Source of the DNA: Chitinibacter fontanus
GTDB taxonomy: Bacteria; Pseudomonadota; Gammaproteobacteria; Burkholderiales; Chitinibacteraceae
Assembly: GCF_013423785.1 (NCBI RefSeq)
Contig: NZ_CP058952.1
Span: 2,941,665 to 3,005,664, forward strand
Length of the DNA stretch: 64,000 nt
Direction of reading: 5' to 3'
Shown here in pieces: positions 47,540 through 53,589 of this stretch (positions within the stretch are counted from its first letter, which is position 1; each line of letters begins with the position of its first letter). The position numbers and the translations under genes are program-made. The notes beneath the pieces are model-generated. The model did not search any database and was not told where the DNA came from. It saw nothing but the letters and a program-made list of their open reading frames with translations.

Positions 47540-48487
47540 CTAATTAGGATCGCAAAGTGGTTGTGAATCACGTATCAGAATTGGTGCTAATTGGTTGAGT
47601 GAAAATATAGTTGATGCCACATTCCCTGTAGCATCGCACCACAATGCTTGTCGCTCGCGCAAATTTTGTTCGGAGATCGGGCAAAAACTACTGTTAGTGT
47701 CTTGTTTGGTTTCCTGAAATGCTTCAACGACACCATGCCATTTTTTGGGGGGAAGTGTTGCTGCGATGGCTTTTAAATAGGCGGCAATATCGGGCGGGTT
47801 ACTTCGGATGACACCGCTACCATCCTGAATTAGCCAGATCACATTACTTGCTTGCTGAATTTTGAGTAAAAAATCAGCATAAACTTTGGGTTTCATGAAT
47901 CCACCAAAGAAGGTCGAAATATAGACTGGCTTACCGGGGGTCAGTCGGTTCAGAGCTTGCACATTCGCTTGTAAATGCGCCGCGAGTATCTGTTGTCGAT
48001 GAGGTGTTTGCCAGTTTAAATCGTCAATTTCAGCAGGTAAATACCAACCTTTGATCTGATTACCAAACTGCGAATAGACTTTGGATGCTTCGGATAAATT
48101 ATCCAGCATCAAGCGGTTTAAGTAAGGCTCTAATTGCTCATCGCTCAGATGTAATTGGCCAAAAAACTCTGGGTCAGCGTATAAACCGAAAATTAAATGC
48201 CGCCGAATCACACGACCAGGCAGGCCATTTTTCAGCCATCTTGCTCCCGTTGAGCCCCATAAATGGTGTGGCCCGTATCTGCTCCATTGCAAAATGACCG
48301 TATCAATATTATGTTTTTTTAGCCGCGATTGAATGTAGGACAGTTGCTCAGAAGTGAGTTTCTGATGGCTGAGCAATGGTTGGTAAAAAATCATATGCGC
48401 ATTTTGCTGCTCGCAACTTGCGTAAGCGATTCGGTTTGTACCCGCTAATAGCAGCATTAATACACTGAGCAGCCAGTTAATTTTCAT
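47540..48487 (-). CDS. DUF4434-like secreted protein of the nfr-type operon
   Basis: A 315-residue protein with an N-terminal signal peptide (MKINWLLSVLMLLLAGTNRI then AYA-S). The body looks like a TIM-barrel glycoside-hydrolase relative of the DUF4434 type: MIFYQPLLSHQ, NIDTVILQWSRYG, IKGWYLPAEIDDLNW, KPVYISTFFGGF, VIWLIQDGSG. The Glu in YLPAEIDD and Asp in QDGSG stand where barrel catalytic acids are found, but activity is unproven. The start overlaps the nfrA-like stop (ATGA). As in E. coli nfrBA with ybcH, a periplasmic protein ends the operon; it may trim or modify the exported polysaccharide. Confidence 0.75.
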   Translation of the reverse strand: MKINWLLSVLMLLLAGTNRIAYASCEQQNAHMIFYQPLLSHQKLTSEQLSYIQSRLKKHNIDTVILQWSRYGPHHLWGSTGARWLKNGLPGRVIRRHLIFGLYADPEFFGQLHLSDEQLEPYLNRLMLDNLSEASKVYSQFGNQIKGWYLPAEIDDLNWQTPHRQQILAAHLQANVQALNRLTPGKPVYISTFFGGFMKPKVYADFLLKIQQASNVIWLIQDGSGVIRSNPPDIAAYLKAIAATLPPKKWHGVVEAFQETKQDTNSSFCPISEQNLRERQALWCDATGNVASTIFSLNQLAPILIRDSQPLCDPN

Positions 48488-51000
48488 CAATGCACCAATT
48501 GCCAATTGAACATAATGCTGTGCCGCTCCTTGGTATTGCCCCCAATTACTTGCCGTACTTCCAAGCTCAATCGTTGATTCCAATCTGGCGCACGCCACTG
48601 ATCGCCACCATGCCAAAGATTTAAGGCTACGCCGAGTCCGATATCCCAGCGACTGACGGTGGTATCTTCGTCGTTGGCATTATTCATGGTGAATATCGTA
48701 TTTAAATAAGGCTCTAGCGTGGTTTTACTTCCTAATTCAGGTGTTTTATAGTGGCGTCCAGCTTCTGCCTTTGTTGTGAAATAATAGTTTCTATCACGCA
48801 CTAACCATGCATAGTCACCGTAGATATTCAGCATAGTCCAAGCATTATCGACTGCGTTCCAATCCGTGCCTATCGAGTGCGATCCAGACAAGCGGAGCAT
48901 CACATCGTCGTTGAGTTTGCCATATTCATGATGCAGCCATTCAACCGATCCAAGCAGATTGTAGTCTTTCGATAAACGCTGACTGAGCCCCAAGCCTGTC
49001 ATCCAACCTTGCCGCAGTGGTTTGAGAGAATAATCTTCGAGGCCTGTTGTCACCCGTCCGAAAACGTAAGTTGGGTGGGCATTATCCCAGATGGGGTCCA
49101 ATCGATAAGCCGCTGATGCGGTGAGCTGGCTGTTGTACTGGGCATACTGTACCGGGCTTGTCATGATTTGGCTGGTTGGCTGGTTATCTAAGCGCCATTG
49201 TCCACCCAAAATAAAATTCCACCGATCTTCATGAGTCTGTACCCCACGCTGCCAGCCAAATTCTCGCTCAGCCGCAGTGTCTGTGTCGTAACTCAGCCGT
49301 TCTGCAATCGTAGCTGCGGAATCAATCGATTGCCGCCAATATTGGGCCGCTACTGTTCGCTGACCATCATCGGATGCTAATTGCGCCAAATCTGGTAATA
49401 GTTCTTTGCGCGCGGGTTCAAGTTGATAGGCCGTGTTTAACGCCCCTAATGCGGGTGCGATTTGCTTAGATTGTTGTAGCCAATAGCCATATTCAGCTTG
49501 AAATTGCGCATTATTAGGGGAAAGTTGAGCTGCTTTAGCAAGCGCTGCGCCTTGTTCTGCGGTTTGATTTAAGTGGCGATAGGCTTGCGCCAGTTCATAC
49601 CAGCTATCCGCCTGCTCATTTTCAGCCAGAGCTTGTTGATAGGCGGCGCTGGCTCCCGACCAGTTCTGCTGCTGCATTAATTTCCGTGCATGGCTGAGCG
49701 GCACTTCACCTGGTGGTAATGCTGCCGCGTAACGGGCAAGTAGCGCCGGGCTGTAGGGTAATTCAGGGTGAGCGAGCGCCAGCCCGGCTATATGTTTGGC
49801 CAATGCAGGGTTTGGTGCACGCTGATTAACTTGATCATACAGTTCCAGTGCATCTTCTAGCTCACCGGCAGCTAGCCGCGCATCTGCTTCTTCACGCACC
49901 CAGTCCAGAGGCACTGGCTTGCCTAATTCGCGTGCGATCTTTTGAGCTGATACATAATATTGTGCGGCGAGCGCTGGATCATTTTCTTGCTGGGCGCAAT
50001 AAGCCGCGGCAAGCTGGCTATGACTACTCGTGGTTTTTGCATTGCTAGATACACTAACCAGCTTGAGTAACTCGGCACAATGTTTACCAGACAAGTGATT
50101 GGCAAGCTGTTGCTCAATTGCGGGGGTATACAATTGTGCATCTTGTAGCGCTTGTACTGAAAGTTCTAGCTCCTGGTAGCGCGCCTGCCGAATGAAACTA
50201 GCAAACAGGGCGGATAATTCGGCTTGTCGTTCGGCCTCTGAAAGCTCGCGGTAGGGGAATTCAGGCGATTTTGGGGGTGATACAGCGGTCTGATCGCTAG
50301 CTTTCTTTACCGCAACTTTATTTTTTGTCTGTGTACTTGATGATGTTTTTTTCTGTTTTGCTGATGAGATAGGCGGAGCAATCTCCGCGACGGCTACGGT
50401 CGGCACATCTTCAGTAGCAGTGGGTTCTTCCGCCAGTTGTTGCTGCCAGTTTTGTAAATCACTAGCCGCTATCGGCACCTGCTTGGCTTGCAATAAACGT
50501 ATTGCCTGTTGTGCTTCGGTTTTGCGTTGCTCATGGAGTAGGGACGTCACCCAGGCACGTGCGCCGCGCTGTTGCTGGGTAGCCGTCAGCCCGCTGCGGG
50601 CAAGGGCCGCACTCGCATATGCTGGCACTATCGTCCAATTTTGCTGCAAATATGCCGCATAAGCCTGCAAATACGGCCCAAGCGCATCATTAGGGCGCAG
50701 ATGCGTCCATTGCACGCCCTGCTGGTCGAGGCAGGTGGCATCACCCAAACGACTACAAATTTGTGACAGCAGAATGCGTGCTTCACGCGCTTTAGGGTCG
50801 ATGCGCACTACTTCTTCCACCAGCGGGCGCGCGCCAGCCAGATCATTTTTGCGATATAGCTCATAGGCTTTATTCAGGCGCGGATAGGTCCGAAAATTAC
50901 GCCACTCATCGCCCAGCCAGCTAGCCTGGGCCGGGGTGGCCAAACCGGCTAGCAGCAGGCTGCTGAGCAAAACCGGTACGACAAAAATTGGTTTTTTCAT
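48487..51000 (-). CDS. nfrA: NfrA-like outer-membrane polysaccharide export protein
   Basis: An 837-residue protein. The start at 51000 gives a clean signal peptide (MKKPIFVVPVLLSSLLLAGL, cleavage after AQA); ATGs at 51012 and 51018 inside the nfrB end are alternatives. The first two thirds hold TPR-like repeats (for example NKAYELYRKNDLAGARPLVE and SWYELAQAYRHLNQTAEQGA) with a charged Lys/Ser linker near 215-250; the last about 230 residues match the NfrA C-terminal domain and look like a beta-barrel (alternating FGRVTTGLEDYSLKPLRQGW, ending IMFNWQLVH). NfrA is the phage N4 receptor and exports the N4 receptor glycan in E. coli. Here it is one of wecB-nfrB-nfrA-DUF4434. Confidence 0.85.
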   Translation of the reverse strand: MKKPIFVVPVLLSSLLLAGLATPAQASWLGDEWRNFRTYPRLNKAYELYRKNDLAGARPLVEEVVRIDPKAREARILLSQICSRLGDATCLDQQGVQWTHLRPNDALGPYLQAYAAYLQQNWTIVPAYASAALARSGLTATQQQRGARAWVTSLLHEQRKTEAQQAIRLLQAKQVPIAASDLQNWQQQLAEEPTATEDVPTVAVAEIAPPISSAKQKKTSSSTQTKNKVAVKKASDQTAVSPPKSPEFPYRELSEAERQAELSALFASFIRQARYQELELSVQALQDAQLYTPAIEQQLANHLSGKHCAELLKLVSVSSNAKTTSSHSQLAAAYCAQQENDPALAAQYYVSAQKIARELGKPVPLDWVREEADARLAAGELEDALELYDQVNQRAPNPALAKHIAGLALAHPELPYSPALLARYAAALPPGEVPLSHARKLMQQQNWSGASAAYQQALAENEQADSWYELAQAYRHLNQTAEQGAALAKAAQLSPNNAQFQAEYGYWLQQSKQIAPALGALNTAYQLEPARKELLPDLAQLASDDGQRTVAAQYWRQSIDSAATIAERLSYDTDTAAEREFGWQRGVQTHEDRWNFILGGQWRLDNQPTSQIMTSPVQYAQYNSQLTASAAYRLDPIWDNAHPTYVFGRVTTGLEDYSLKPLRQGWMTGLGLSQRLSKDYNLLGSVEWLHHEYGKLNDDVMLRLSGSHSIGTDWNAVDNAWTMLNIYGDYAWLVRDRNYYFTTKAEAGRHYKTPELGSKTTLEPYLNTIFTMNNANDEDTTVSRWDIGLGVALNLWHGGDQWRAPDWNQRLSLEVRQVIGGNTKERHSIMFNWQLVH

Positions 51001-51004
51001 TGGC

Positions 51005-52453
51005 TTAATCATCCGCATGCAGATCGGGGAAGTCGTGGCTGGTTTTATCCCATTTCACCGCGCTACCCGTTTTGCGACTATTGCGCACTTGGAAAAAGGC
51101 GCGGAAAAATGCCCCGATATTGACCACATTGCCCACCAGCAGGCGCGGCACCGATTGCACCGCCTGCCACCAGCCAAAATAGCGGCGGGTGAAAATAAAG
51201 CGCTGCAGAACGCGATTGCACATAAACAAAAAGTTGATCGCCACCAGCGCCCACAGCCAGCTCTCGCGCGGGATCAAATCTGGGAAAGTCCACCAGCCGG
51301 GGTCTATTTCATGGTGTACCCAGGCCTGAAAGACCGAGAATACAATCAAGTAACCCATAAGTAATGAGGGGAAGGCCAGTACGCTTTTGCGATCGCGCAT
51401 CAGCATATACCGCATCAGGGGTTTACCTTGCCAGCCCAGGTTCTTCCAGCCTTGGAAGACAATACCCACGATCCAGCGCGATTTCTGCCGGATGGCCTGC
51501 CACAGATGATTGGGGAAATATTCCTGCACGCAAATCATGCGATGCACGCCTTTGCGGCCAAACCAAGCCGGTGGCTCGCCCTTAAACTGCACATCGTAGT
51601 GCAGCATCATTTCACGCGCGCCCACCGCGTGCAGGCGAAAGCCGATTTCATAGTCTTCGGTCAGCGTGCCGGTATCGAATACCACGCCGCCGTTGATTTG
51701 CTCCAAGAGGCTAATGGCTTTGCGGCTAAACGCGGTGCCCACGCCGGCGCTCGGTACCTGACCGGTCAGCATTTGCCGCACCAAGATGTCCTTGCCGTGC
51801 CACTCAGCAAATTCATCGACATAGTGATTGCCCACCACACTGGTCCAGCGCCGTGCCAGCGGCATTACCGGCAGTTGCACCAGATCAAACTGCGGCACCA
51901 GCCGGTTGAAGGCGCGTAGCTCCAGCGGGTGAATAATGTCTTCGGCATCGTGATAAGCCAAGCAGCTGAAATGAATGCCCTCGCGCGCTTCCATCTCGGT
52001 GATAAACGCAATGATGTTGTTCAGACAATCGGCCTTGGTGGTCGGGCCGGGGTCGCGAGTGACTACCTTGTGCACATTCGGGTAGCGCGCGGCGACCTTA
52101 TCAACTTCGGCTTGGGTCTCGGGGTCGTTCGGGTAAGTGCCGACAAAAATGTGGTAATTGTCGTAATCAAAAGTGCGCGCAGCATAATCGGCCATGCGCT
52201 GGATCACCGGCGCCTCTTGCCACGCCGGGATCATAATCGCAATTGGTTGTTGCGCATCCTGATACAACTCATCGGCATACTCTGGCAGGTATATGCTGCG
52301 ACGCCAGTTTTTACGGTGCTTTAAAAGCCATACCCAGTAGCGAACATCAATCAGAAAGTCATCAATCGAGCTGATAAAGATGGTAACAATCCCCACCCGC
52401 AGCAAAATCGCCAGCACAAACCAGTAGGTGGCAAAAAAATCGAGCCAGCTCAT
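51005..52453 (-). CDS. nfrB: NfrB-like membrane glycosyltransferase
   Basis: A 482-residue family-2 glycosyltransferase with membrane helices at the N-terminus (about 8-32) and C-terminus (about 350-375, 400-420). Motifs: IAIMIPAWQEAPVIQRMADY, DxD in AYHDAEDIIHP, TED in TGTLTEDYEIGFRL and QxxRW in RQKSRWIVGIVFQG, the processive polysaccharide synthase set. E. coli NfrB is longer because of a C-terminal MshEN-type domain linked to cyclic di-GMP; that part is absent here. With WecB supplying UDP-ManNAc it would polymerise and export a ManNAc-containing glycan. Overlaps wecB by 4 bases. Confidence 0.88.
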   Translation of the reverse strand: MSWLDFFATYWFVLAILLRVGIVTIFISSIDDFLIDVRYWVWLLKHRKNWRRSIYLPEYADELYQDAQQPIAIMIPAWQEAPVIQRMADYAARTFDYDNYHIFVGTYPNDPETQAEVDKVAARYPNVHKVVTRDPGPTTKADCLNNIIAFITEMEAREGIHFSCLAYHDAEDIIHPLELRAFNRLVPQFDLVQLPVMPLARRWTSVVGNHYVDEFAEWHGKDILVRQMLTGQVPSAGVGTAFSRKAISLLEQINGGVVFDTGTLTEDYEIGFRLHAVGAREMMLHYDVQFKGEPPAWFGRKGVHRMICVQEYFPNHLWQAIRQKSRWIVGIVFQGWKNLGWQGKPLMRYMLMRDRKSVLAFPSLLMGYLIVFSVFQAWVHHEIDPGWWTFPDLIPRESWLWALVAINFLFMCNRVLQRFIFTRRYFGWWQAVQSVPRLLVGNVVNIGAFFRAFFQVRNSRKTGSAVKWDKTSHDFPDLHADD

Positions 52454-53589
52454 CGTGCGGCGCTCCAGGCTTTAATCAAGGCCACAATCTGCTGCGCCGC
52501 ATCGCCACTGCCATATGGATTTTTTGCTTGCGCCATCGCGGCATAGGCGGCGGGTTGTTCTAGCAATTCGCTCACCGCCTGCACGATGGTGGCCGTTTGC
52601 GTGCCGACCAATTTGGCGGTGCCGGCCGCAACCGCTTCGGGCCGCTCGGTGGTATCGCGCATCACCAGCACCGGTTTTCCGAACGCGGGCGCTTCTTCCT
52701 GAATGCCGCCACTGTCGGTCAGAATGATGTGCGCTTGTTTAAGCAGATACACAAAGGGCAAATAATCTTGCGGCGCAATCAGATGAATATTGGGGACCTC
52801 GGCCAGCCAGCGCTGCACTGGCGCCTGCACATTCGGGTTCAGATGCACCGGATACACGATCTGCAAATCATCACGCTGGGCCAGCTGCGCTAACGCGGCA
52901 CAAATCTGCTCAAAACCCTCGCCAAAGTTTTCCCGCCGATGGCCCGTTACCAGCAGCAGTTTTTTACTGGGATCAAGAAACGGAAATTGGCTCGCCAGCT
53001 CAGCCGCCAAGGCTGGCTCACGGTCAATGCGCTGGCTGATGCTGAGTAGCGCATCAATTACGGTATTGCCGGTAATGTGAATCTCGCCCTGCCGATGGCT
53101 GCTGCGGGTTAGATTTTCGGCGGCCTGCGGCGTGGGGGCAAAATGCAGTGCAGCAAATAACCCGACCACCGTACGATTCATTTCTTCAGGCCACGGCGCA
53201 TCCAGCTGCCAGGTGCGCAAGCCTGCCTCGACGTGGCCAACCGGAATCTGCCGGTAAAACCCAGCCAGCCCAGCAGCCAAGGTGGTGCTGGTATCGCCAT
53301 GCACTAGAATCAGATCGGGCTGGGCTTGCGCCAACACGTCATCCACGCCTTGCAAGGCGCGGGCTTGCAGCTGCGCCAGTTGCTGGCCGGGGGTCATTAA
53401 ATCCAGATCATAATCGGCCTGCAGATCAAACAGCTGCAGCACCTGATCAAGCATTTCTCGATGTTGGGCAGTGACACACACCAAGCTCTCGATGGCAGGA
53501 TCGGCTGCCAGCGCATGCACCAATGGGGCCATTTTGATCGCTTCTGGCCGGGTGCCGAAGACCGATAAAACCTTAATTTTCCCAGTCAT
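52450..53589 (-). CDS. wecB: UDP-N-acetylglucosamine 2-epimerase (non-hydrolysing)
   Basis: A 379-residue enzyme that interconverts UDP-GlcNAc and UDP-ManNAc. VLSVFGTRPEAIKMAPLVHA opens the Rossmann-like domain; VTAQHREMLDQVLQLF, VHGDTSTTLAAGLAGFY, VGHVEAGLRT, PEEMNR, VTGHRRENFG, and LTDSGGIQEEAPAFGKPVLV followed by MRDTTERPEA are the family signatures with the substrate-binding His, Glu and Arg residues. The start at 53589 (GTCATC region) is preferred to in-frame codons upstream. First gene of the operon; it feeds the NfrB-like synthase. Confidence 0.95.
   Translation of the reverse strand: MTGKIKVLSVFGTRPEAIKMAPLVHALAADPAIESLVCVTAQHREMLDQVLQLFDLQADYDLDLMTPGQQLAQLQARALQGVDDVLAQAQPDLILVHGDTSTTLAAGLAGFYRQIPVGHVEAGLRTWQLDAPWPEEMNRTVVGLFAALHFAPTPQAAENLTRSSHRQGEIHITGNTVIDALLSISQRIDREPALAAELASQFPFLDPSKKLLLVTGHRRENFGEGFEQICAALAQLAQRDDLQIVYPVHLNPNVQAPVQRWLAEVPNIHLIAPQDYLPFVYLLKQAHIILTDSGGIQEEAPAFGKPVLVMRDTTERPEAVAAGTAKLVGTQTATIVQAVSELLEQPAAYAAMAQAKNPYGSGDAAQQIVALIKAWSAAR

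Follow-up and report, generated by a model that had tools for sequence, protein, structure and literature searches.

The window, a 64-kb stretch of a host genome that consists of one 3.63-Mb contig, contains a four-gene operon, wecB-nfrB-nfrA-ybcH, on the minus strand at positions 47540-53589, flanked by plus-strand genes named from the domain scan as those for GMP synthase and an M32 carboxypeptidase. The leading gene, wecB (52450-53589, 379 aa from the ATG at 53589), encodes a non-hydrolysing UDP-GlcNAc 2-epimerase predicted to supply UDP-ManNAc, and is followed by nfrB (51005-52453, 482 aa), a short form of a predicted inner-membrane processive family-2 glycosyltransferase, by nfrA (48487-51018), specifying a TPR protein with a C-terminal outer-membrane barrel that is the predicted export pore, and by ybcH (47540-48487), whose DUF4434 product is modelled as a secreted or membrane-anchored TIM barrel and is a predicted glycoside hydrolase. 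Sequence and domain scans confirm, on this strand and at this place, the overlap-coupled wecB, nfrB, nfrA and DUF4434 genes reported by an earlier, sequence-only reading, with one correction: the ATGA overlap by which that reading tied the DUF4434 gene to the operon in fact joins wecB to nfrB (4 nt, 52450-52453), and nfrA and ybcH share a 1-nt TGATG stop/start overlap at 48487. The third junction, read like the others from the sequence, is a 14-nt nfrB/nfrA overlap (51005-51018) if nfrA starts at its first ATG, 51018, shrinks to 8 nt from the ATG at 51012, and is absent from the ATG at 51000, the Met from which the signal peptide, neatest by eye, likely begins. Nine of the 11 short-nfrB loci discussed below keep the order wecB-nfrB-nfrA-ybcH, with wecB upstream of nfrB on the same strand, and all 11 keep nfrB-nfrA-ybcH; wecB was not seen at two Campylobacteraceae short-nfrB loci within the stretch examined. 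A promoter scan gives one 10/12-match site before wecB, to which we attach no weight because shuffled versions of the region give more matches than the region itself (mean 6.9 versus 4); a GC-rich hairpin with a T run is visible by eye at about 47527-47496, and is absent from the promoter scan's list. The four genes are best read as an Nfr-type exopolysaccharide synthase-secretion operon, which is a known kind.

The operon WecB scores 498.5 bits on TIGR00236, above the cut-off of 210.15, and 398.4 bits on PF02350. For NfrB, NfrA and YbcH the window proteins hit the NCBIfam equivalogs of the E. coli proteins, in every case below the cut-off: NfrB reaches 575.2 bits on NF008411, the model for c-di-GMP-activated NfrB (cut-off 1170), over model positions 2-477 of 723, where E. 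coli NfrB (locus L118) scores 1326; NfrA reaches 74.4 of 1223 bits on PRK09782; and YbcH 169 of 344 bits on PRK09936. In Pfam, NfrA passes PF13283 (NfrA_C) with 76.1 bits against a cut-off of 25, with TPR matches that stay below their cut-offs (TPR_16, 31.9 bits, just under 32.7), and YbcH passes PF14488 with 93 bits against 30. By sequence, the gene earlier called DUF4434-like corresponds to E. coli ybcH.

Domain searches bear out the earlier statement that this NfrB has no C-terminal MshEN-type domain. Pfam returns glycosyltransferase-2 matches (PF13641/PF13632) and no MshEN (PF05157) at E ≤ 0.1, and NCBIfam no NF053729 c-di-GMP motif at E ≤ 1, while the same scans find both in E. coli NfrB (L118), the control. 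The window protein terminates nine residues past the WDKT-H motif, at the place where the c-di-GMP part starts in long forms, and this end is conserved, lying 9-14 residues after WDKT-H in 11 of 107 NfrB loci, a set made up of the window, 26 loci from the family and order, and the top 80 among at least 584 relatives. The remainder comprise 5 intermediate forms and 91 that are long or lack the trimming motif; the 107 are not all independent, because L072 and L044 represent one genome stretch twice. MshEN is absent from the five short NfrBs scanned with Pfam (E ≤ 0.1) and NF053729 from the seven scanned with NCBIfam (E ≤ 1), two sets that both include the window and together cover all 11; the remaining four were scanned for NF053729 at E ≤ 1e-20 only and have 12-14 residues left for a 53-residue motif. 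Two intermediate forms, L054 and L065, retain that 53-residue motif in the same scan that finds none in the seven short ones. HDAED, TED and Q..RW motifs are present in the window NfrB, their key residues invariant in an alignment with other NfrBs, and motifs of the HD[AS]ED, TED and Q..RW type are kept in 11 of 11 short NfrBs; with these processive family-2 motifs the window protein is, by sequence, a member of the wider NfrB glycosyltransferase family.

A sequencing error or frameshift behind the short NfrB was rejected, the same end recurring in 8 of 43 family genomes. NF011305 (PRK14716.1-3), on which the window NfrB scores 444.4 bits against a cut-off of 409, was considered as a marker of the short form and dropped, since all ten NfrBs scanned, long ones included, pass it. 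One "intermediate" NfrB, L100, is an E. coli nfrB split into frames of 550 and 185 aa; that of E. coli L118 is intact.

The sequence-only reading had staked its claim on there being no separate MshEN partner, and none is found among the four operon genes or in the window; a hidden c-di-GMP partner in the operon was likewise rejected, none of the four genes matching. The 64-kb window holds no MshEN, c-di-GMP-motif or PilZ match and none of the genome's 46 GGDEF matches, the nearest of which lies about 22 kb from the operon. With all of these absent from the window, direct allosteric c-di-GMP control as in E. coli, where the MshEN part of NfrB binds the nucleotide (PMC8669469), is unlikely on sequence, and we infer that control differs from that of the E. 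coli system. That c-di-GMP still controls the short system by an indirect route, through an unlinked PilZ- or MshEN-like receptor, a docking diguanylate cyclase or transcription, is a minority possibility that we take seriously: elsewhere the genome has, besides its 46 GGDEF matches, 5 PilZ, 2 MshEN and 2 c-di-GMP-motif matches, one of these motifs, the sole one within 100 kb, is in a tyrosine kinase of EpsG type from a different exopolysaccharide cluster, and E. coli NfrB contacts the cyclase DgcJ (PMC8669469). Against it stand the distance of the nearest GGDEF match and the absence of a GGDEF text pattern, a crude test, among the neighbours in eight family short loci of ~18 kb each. The EpsG-type kinase, encoded some 20 kb ahead of the window (L139:7778-8641; genome 2921 kb), carries its c-di-GMP motif at the N-terminus.

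In two other short loci (L033:13448-15067; L038) ybcH is followed by a 539-aa gene whose product, judged by eye, resembles a response regulator with TPRs and may be a regulator. A GGDEF text pattern in an 815-aa gene downstream in L059 proved false, Pfam assigning the protein to DUF2334, a deacetylase-like family. The Campylobacteraceae short-nfrB loci (L059:13140-15587, L064:336-2486) have a neighbour that combines a beta-sandwich domain with DUF2334 and might serve polymer modification; L059 also has a CotH gene.

The AlphaFold2 model of the window YbcH (pLDDT 88.1, pTM 0.86) shows eight strands alternating with helices, with a hairpin after the seventh, that is, a (beta/alpha)8 barrel. The "barrel-like secreted protein" of the sequence-only reading thus holds up as a TIM barrel and not as an outer-membrane barrel, which is NfrA (PF13283). 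Numbered from the ATG at 48487, and with strand numbers that we assigned, Glu153 lies in strand 145-154 near the end of beta-4 and Glu255 ends beta-7 (strand 250-255). Across 93 homologues (E < 1e-10, 231-419 aa), Glu153 is present in 93 and Glu255 in 92, and Gln36, Gln67, Trp68 and Tyr149 are invariant. A model of E. coli YbcH (pLDDT 95.4), whose input alignment shares part of its rows with that of the window, has Glu144 (strand 138-146) and Glu245 (strand 241-245) in the same places. Retaining glycosidases of clan GH-A carry their catalytic glutamates at the ends of beta-4 and beta-7.

The best structural match of both models is 4h41, with Z 21.6 (rmsd 3.6 over 260 residues) for the window and 20.4 for E. 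coli. The next matches, many of them tied, include the C-terminal domain of PgaB (Z 15.4 and 16.4), PslG for the window model (Z 14.3), and beta-mannosidases and mannanases, most of the next rows being glycosidases or chitinase-like. Beta-mannosidase or mannanase titles account for 17 of the 50 matches listed for the E. coli model and 4 of 50 for the window model, a weak hint at a manno-configured substrate, weak because rows within 1 Z are ties. The Foldseek list also contains methanobactin-synthesis proteins, aldolases and acyl-transferring synthases; TIM barrels match widely, and a shared fold shows no function. By sequence, YbcH has no relative of solved structure (best E 0.6).

DUF4434 occurs in 17 of 19 nfrB-bearing and 0 of 24 nfrB-less family genomes (Fisher p 4e-10, a guide only because the genomes are related), and by coordinates at the nfr locus in 16 of the 17; the Pfam threshold used here misses a weak YbcH-like neighbour of L048 (G054), which a custom profile labelled. 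The literature searched does not use the label DUF4434 in any paper, and the titles and abstract openings of its YbcH and NfrB (since 2022) papers do not describe YbcH as a glycoside hydrolase. The barrel models, the conserved Glu pair and the glycosidase fold matches together point to YbcH as the putative glycoside hydrolase of the Nfr pathway itself, with Glu153 and Glu255 as candidate catalytic residues. YbcH might instead be a non-catalytic, carbohydrate-binding periplasmic scaffold, as proposed for E. coli, where it is called a putative scaffold and is dispensable for phage N4 (PMC8669469); we think this rather unlikely in view of two near-invariant glutamates at clan GH-A positions and the four further residues kept in 93 of 93 homologues. 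The E. coli phenotype implies that hydrolysis, if YbcH performs it, is not needed for N4.

Short and long NfrBs occur side by side in the Chitinibacteraceae, where 19 of 43 genomes have NfrB at E ≤ 1e-60, eight of them short (open frames of 488-516 aa) and 11 long (717-793 aa); the short form is found in two genera, the window's own (2 of 6 genomes) and one other (6 of 7). At the level of the order, 13 of 300 genomes match NfrB, the window's being uniquely that short (next 568-580 aa), and in a class sample 7 of 369 genomes match at E ≤ 1e-60, with open frames of 516-749 aa apart from the window's. Outside the family, the named-genome scan, taken as the top 80 of at least 584 relatives, yields short NfrBs from one Variovorax and two Campylobacteraceae records; L098, also from Campylobacteraceae, is long, with a tail of 204 residues. 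The order also contains a second kind of NfrB cluster, in which a 733-830-aa gene directly precedes nfrB (L047-L049, L054-L056); a BcsB homologue has been described in an Achromobacter cluster (PMC8669472).

An NfrB tree was built from 71 of the 107 loci, 33 being left out by choice (mostly near relatives, with a few incomplete or split) and 3 for want of the trimming motif; the long Campylobacteraceae NfrB, L098, lies outside it. All 11 short forms fall on one side of a branch with SH-aLRT 96, at which the program warns that long branches meet, and nine stay together at 100 once L065, two long rows and both short Campylobacteraceae rows are dropped. In a WecB tree of 52 rows, thinned in a similar way to the NfrB tree, an AU test rejects a clade uniting WecB of the nine short operons with WecB of seven long family operons (p 1.4e-32); the short group there also takes in L047, a locus with a long nfrB, and the recruitment of wecB may have been independent of nfrB. 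The NfrB grouping and the WecB rejection suggest that the short operon is probably a separate type, old or transferred, a reading compatible with either loss of the domain from NfrB or its absence there.

Read as a recent event, the earlier term "shortened" is doubtful, the form being common to two family genera, one Variovorax and two Campylobacteraceae records. A recent truncation, by which the long NfrB usual in the family was deprived of its C-terminus and a partly working synthase remained, would suit the presence of long forms in the same family and the AU test, which does not reject a clade of the nine short with eight long family NfrBs (p 0.126); we nevertheless judge it improbable, as the short forms are 77-96% identical across two genera and 70% to the one from a Variovorax, against 40-49% to long forms, as they retain every active-site motif, and as the WecB test speaks against a shared short/long clade, an argument tempered by the possible separate recruitment of wecB and by the placement of L047.

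The host genome encodes two PF02350 proteins, of which the second (L138:8637-11915) scores 229.8 bits on the WecB model, also above the 210.15 cut-off, and adjoins a sugar-nucleotide reductase (NF047837, above cut-off) and an FnlA-like dehydratase (689.9 bits, below the cut-off of 730); its lower WecB score and these neighbours suggest that it serves another pathway. It is clustered with FnlA-like and WbcJ-like genes, presumably an N-acetylfucosamine route. Acceptor and linkage are not readable from sequence, and the operon could in principle make another polymer, for example one that is GlcNAc-based or mixed, which we regard as a slim prospect given the 4-nt coupling of wecB to nfrB and E. 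coli genetics that point to UDP-ManNAc (PMC8669472, PMC8669469).

We propose that WecB would convert UDP-GlcNAc to UDP-ManNAc, that NfrB would polymerise UDP-ManNAc across the inner membrane, that NfrA, with its TPRs and outer-membrane barrel, would export the chain, and that YbcH would cut or trim it in the periplasm. PgaB, PslG and BcsZ are the corresponding cutting or trimming enzymes of other synthase-dependent exopolysaccharide pathways. Because this NfrB would belong to a lineage without MshEN, c-di-GMP could not switch the synthase through that domain, and output would most likely be set by gene expression and UDP-ManNAc supply. Taken as a whole, an Nfr-type ManNAc-polymer operon with YbcH as its hydrolase and a synthase not itself switched by c-di-GMP is a reading in which we have reasonably good confidence. 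The earlier observation is confirmed and its interpretation survives in part; what emerges is an operon variant without a built-in c-di-GMP switch, and a testable function for the fourth gene. A bolder extension, to which we give even chances, is that YbcH/DUF4434 founds a new family of retaining endo-glycosidases for the ManNAc-based Nfr glycan, in E. coli too, alongside an old NfrB lineage that polymerises without direct c-di-GMP activation.

By analogy, the operon probably makes and exports a surface polymer akin to the E. coli one gripped by phage N4. A synthase of this kind, with no c-di-GMP domain, offers a natural test of that domain's role and could be easier to handle in vitro; should YbcH cut the polymer, the enzyme would become a reagent for releasing the sugar and identifying it, and a so far uncharacterised protein of E. 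coli would gain a function.

Several known systems bear comparison. Cellulose (BcsA/B/C/Z) and PNAG (PgaA-D) are made by a family-2 synthase with a TPR-barrel pore, and these pathways, like that of Psl (PslG), have a dedicated glycoside hydrolase. In fold, the YbcH models resemble PslG and the C-terminal domain of PgaB; Pfam finds nothing BcsB- or PgaD-like among the four genes. The best fold match, 4h41, is BT_0435, deposited as a putative alpha-L-fucosidase, and by sequence the window YbcH belongs above the Pfam cut-off to DUF4434. Closest is the E. coli NfrB-NfrA-YbcH system with WecB, for which a ManNAc-based glycan, NGR (N4 glycan receptor), has been proposed (PMC8669472), and whose glycan is described as uncharacterised in structure and role in the cited sections of PMC8669469 and PMC8669472. 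The E. coli operon is nfrBA-ybcH, with ybcH as third gene and a 14-nt nfrB/nfrA overlap, and the system needs WecB and not WecC (PMC8669469). The same four proteins, the nfrB-nfrA-ybcH order and the glycosyltransferase motifs recur here, as may the 14-nt overlap (from the first ATG), with 46% identity to the L118 NfrB over the shared part and 32% for YbcH; the window differs in having wecB inside the operon and an NfrB without the MshEN/c-di-GMP part. MshEN is reported in 1,705 of 1,841 NfrB homologs (PMC8669469), so 136 lack it. Neither the DUF4434 gene in the operon nor the linked wecB is new, because the former is E. coli ybcH and the latter is described, for organisms without another WecB pathway, in PMC8669469. 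Pseudomonas nfr operons share the wecB-nfrB-nfrA-ybcH order, their linked wecB being noted in the same source, and differ in having a long NfrB and, often, a gene with a GGDEF text pattern after ybcH.
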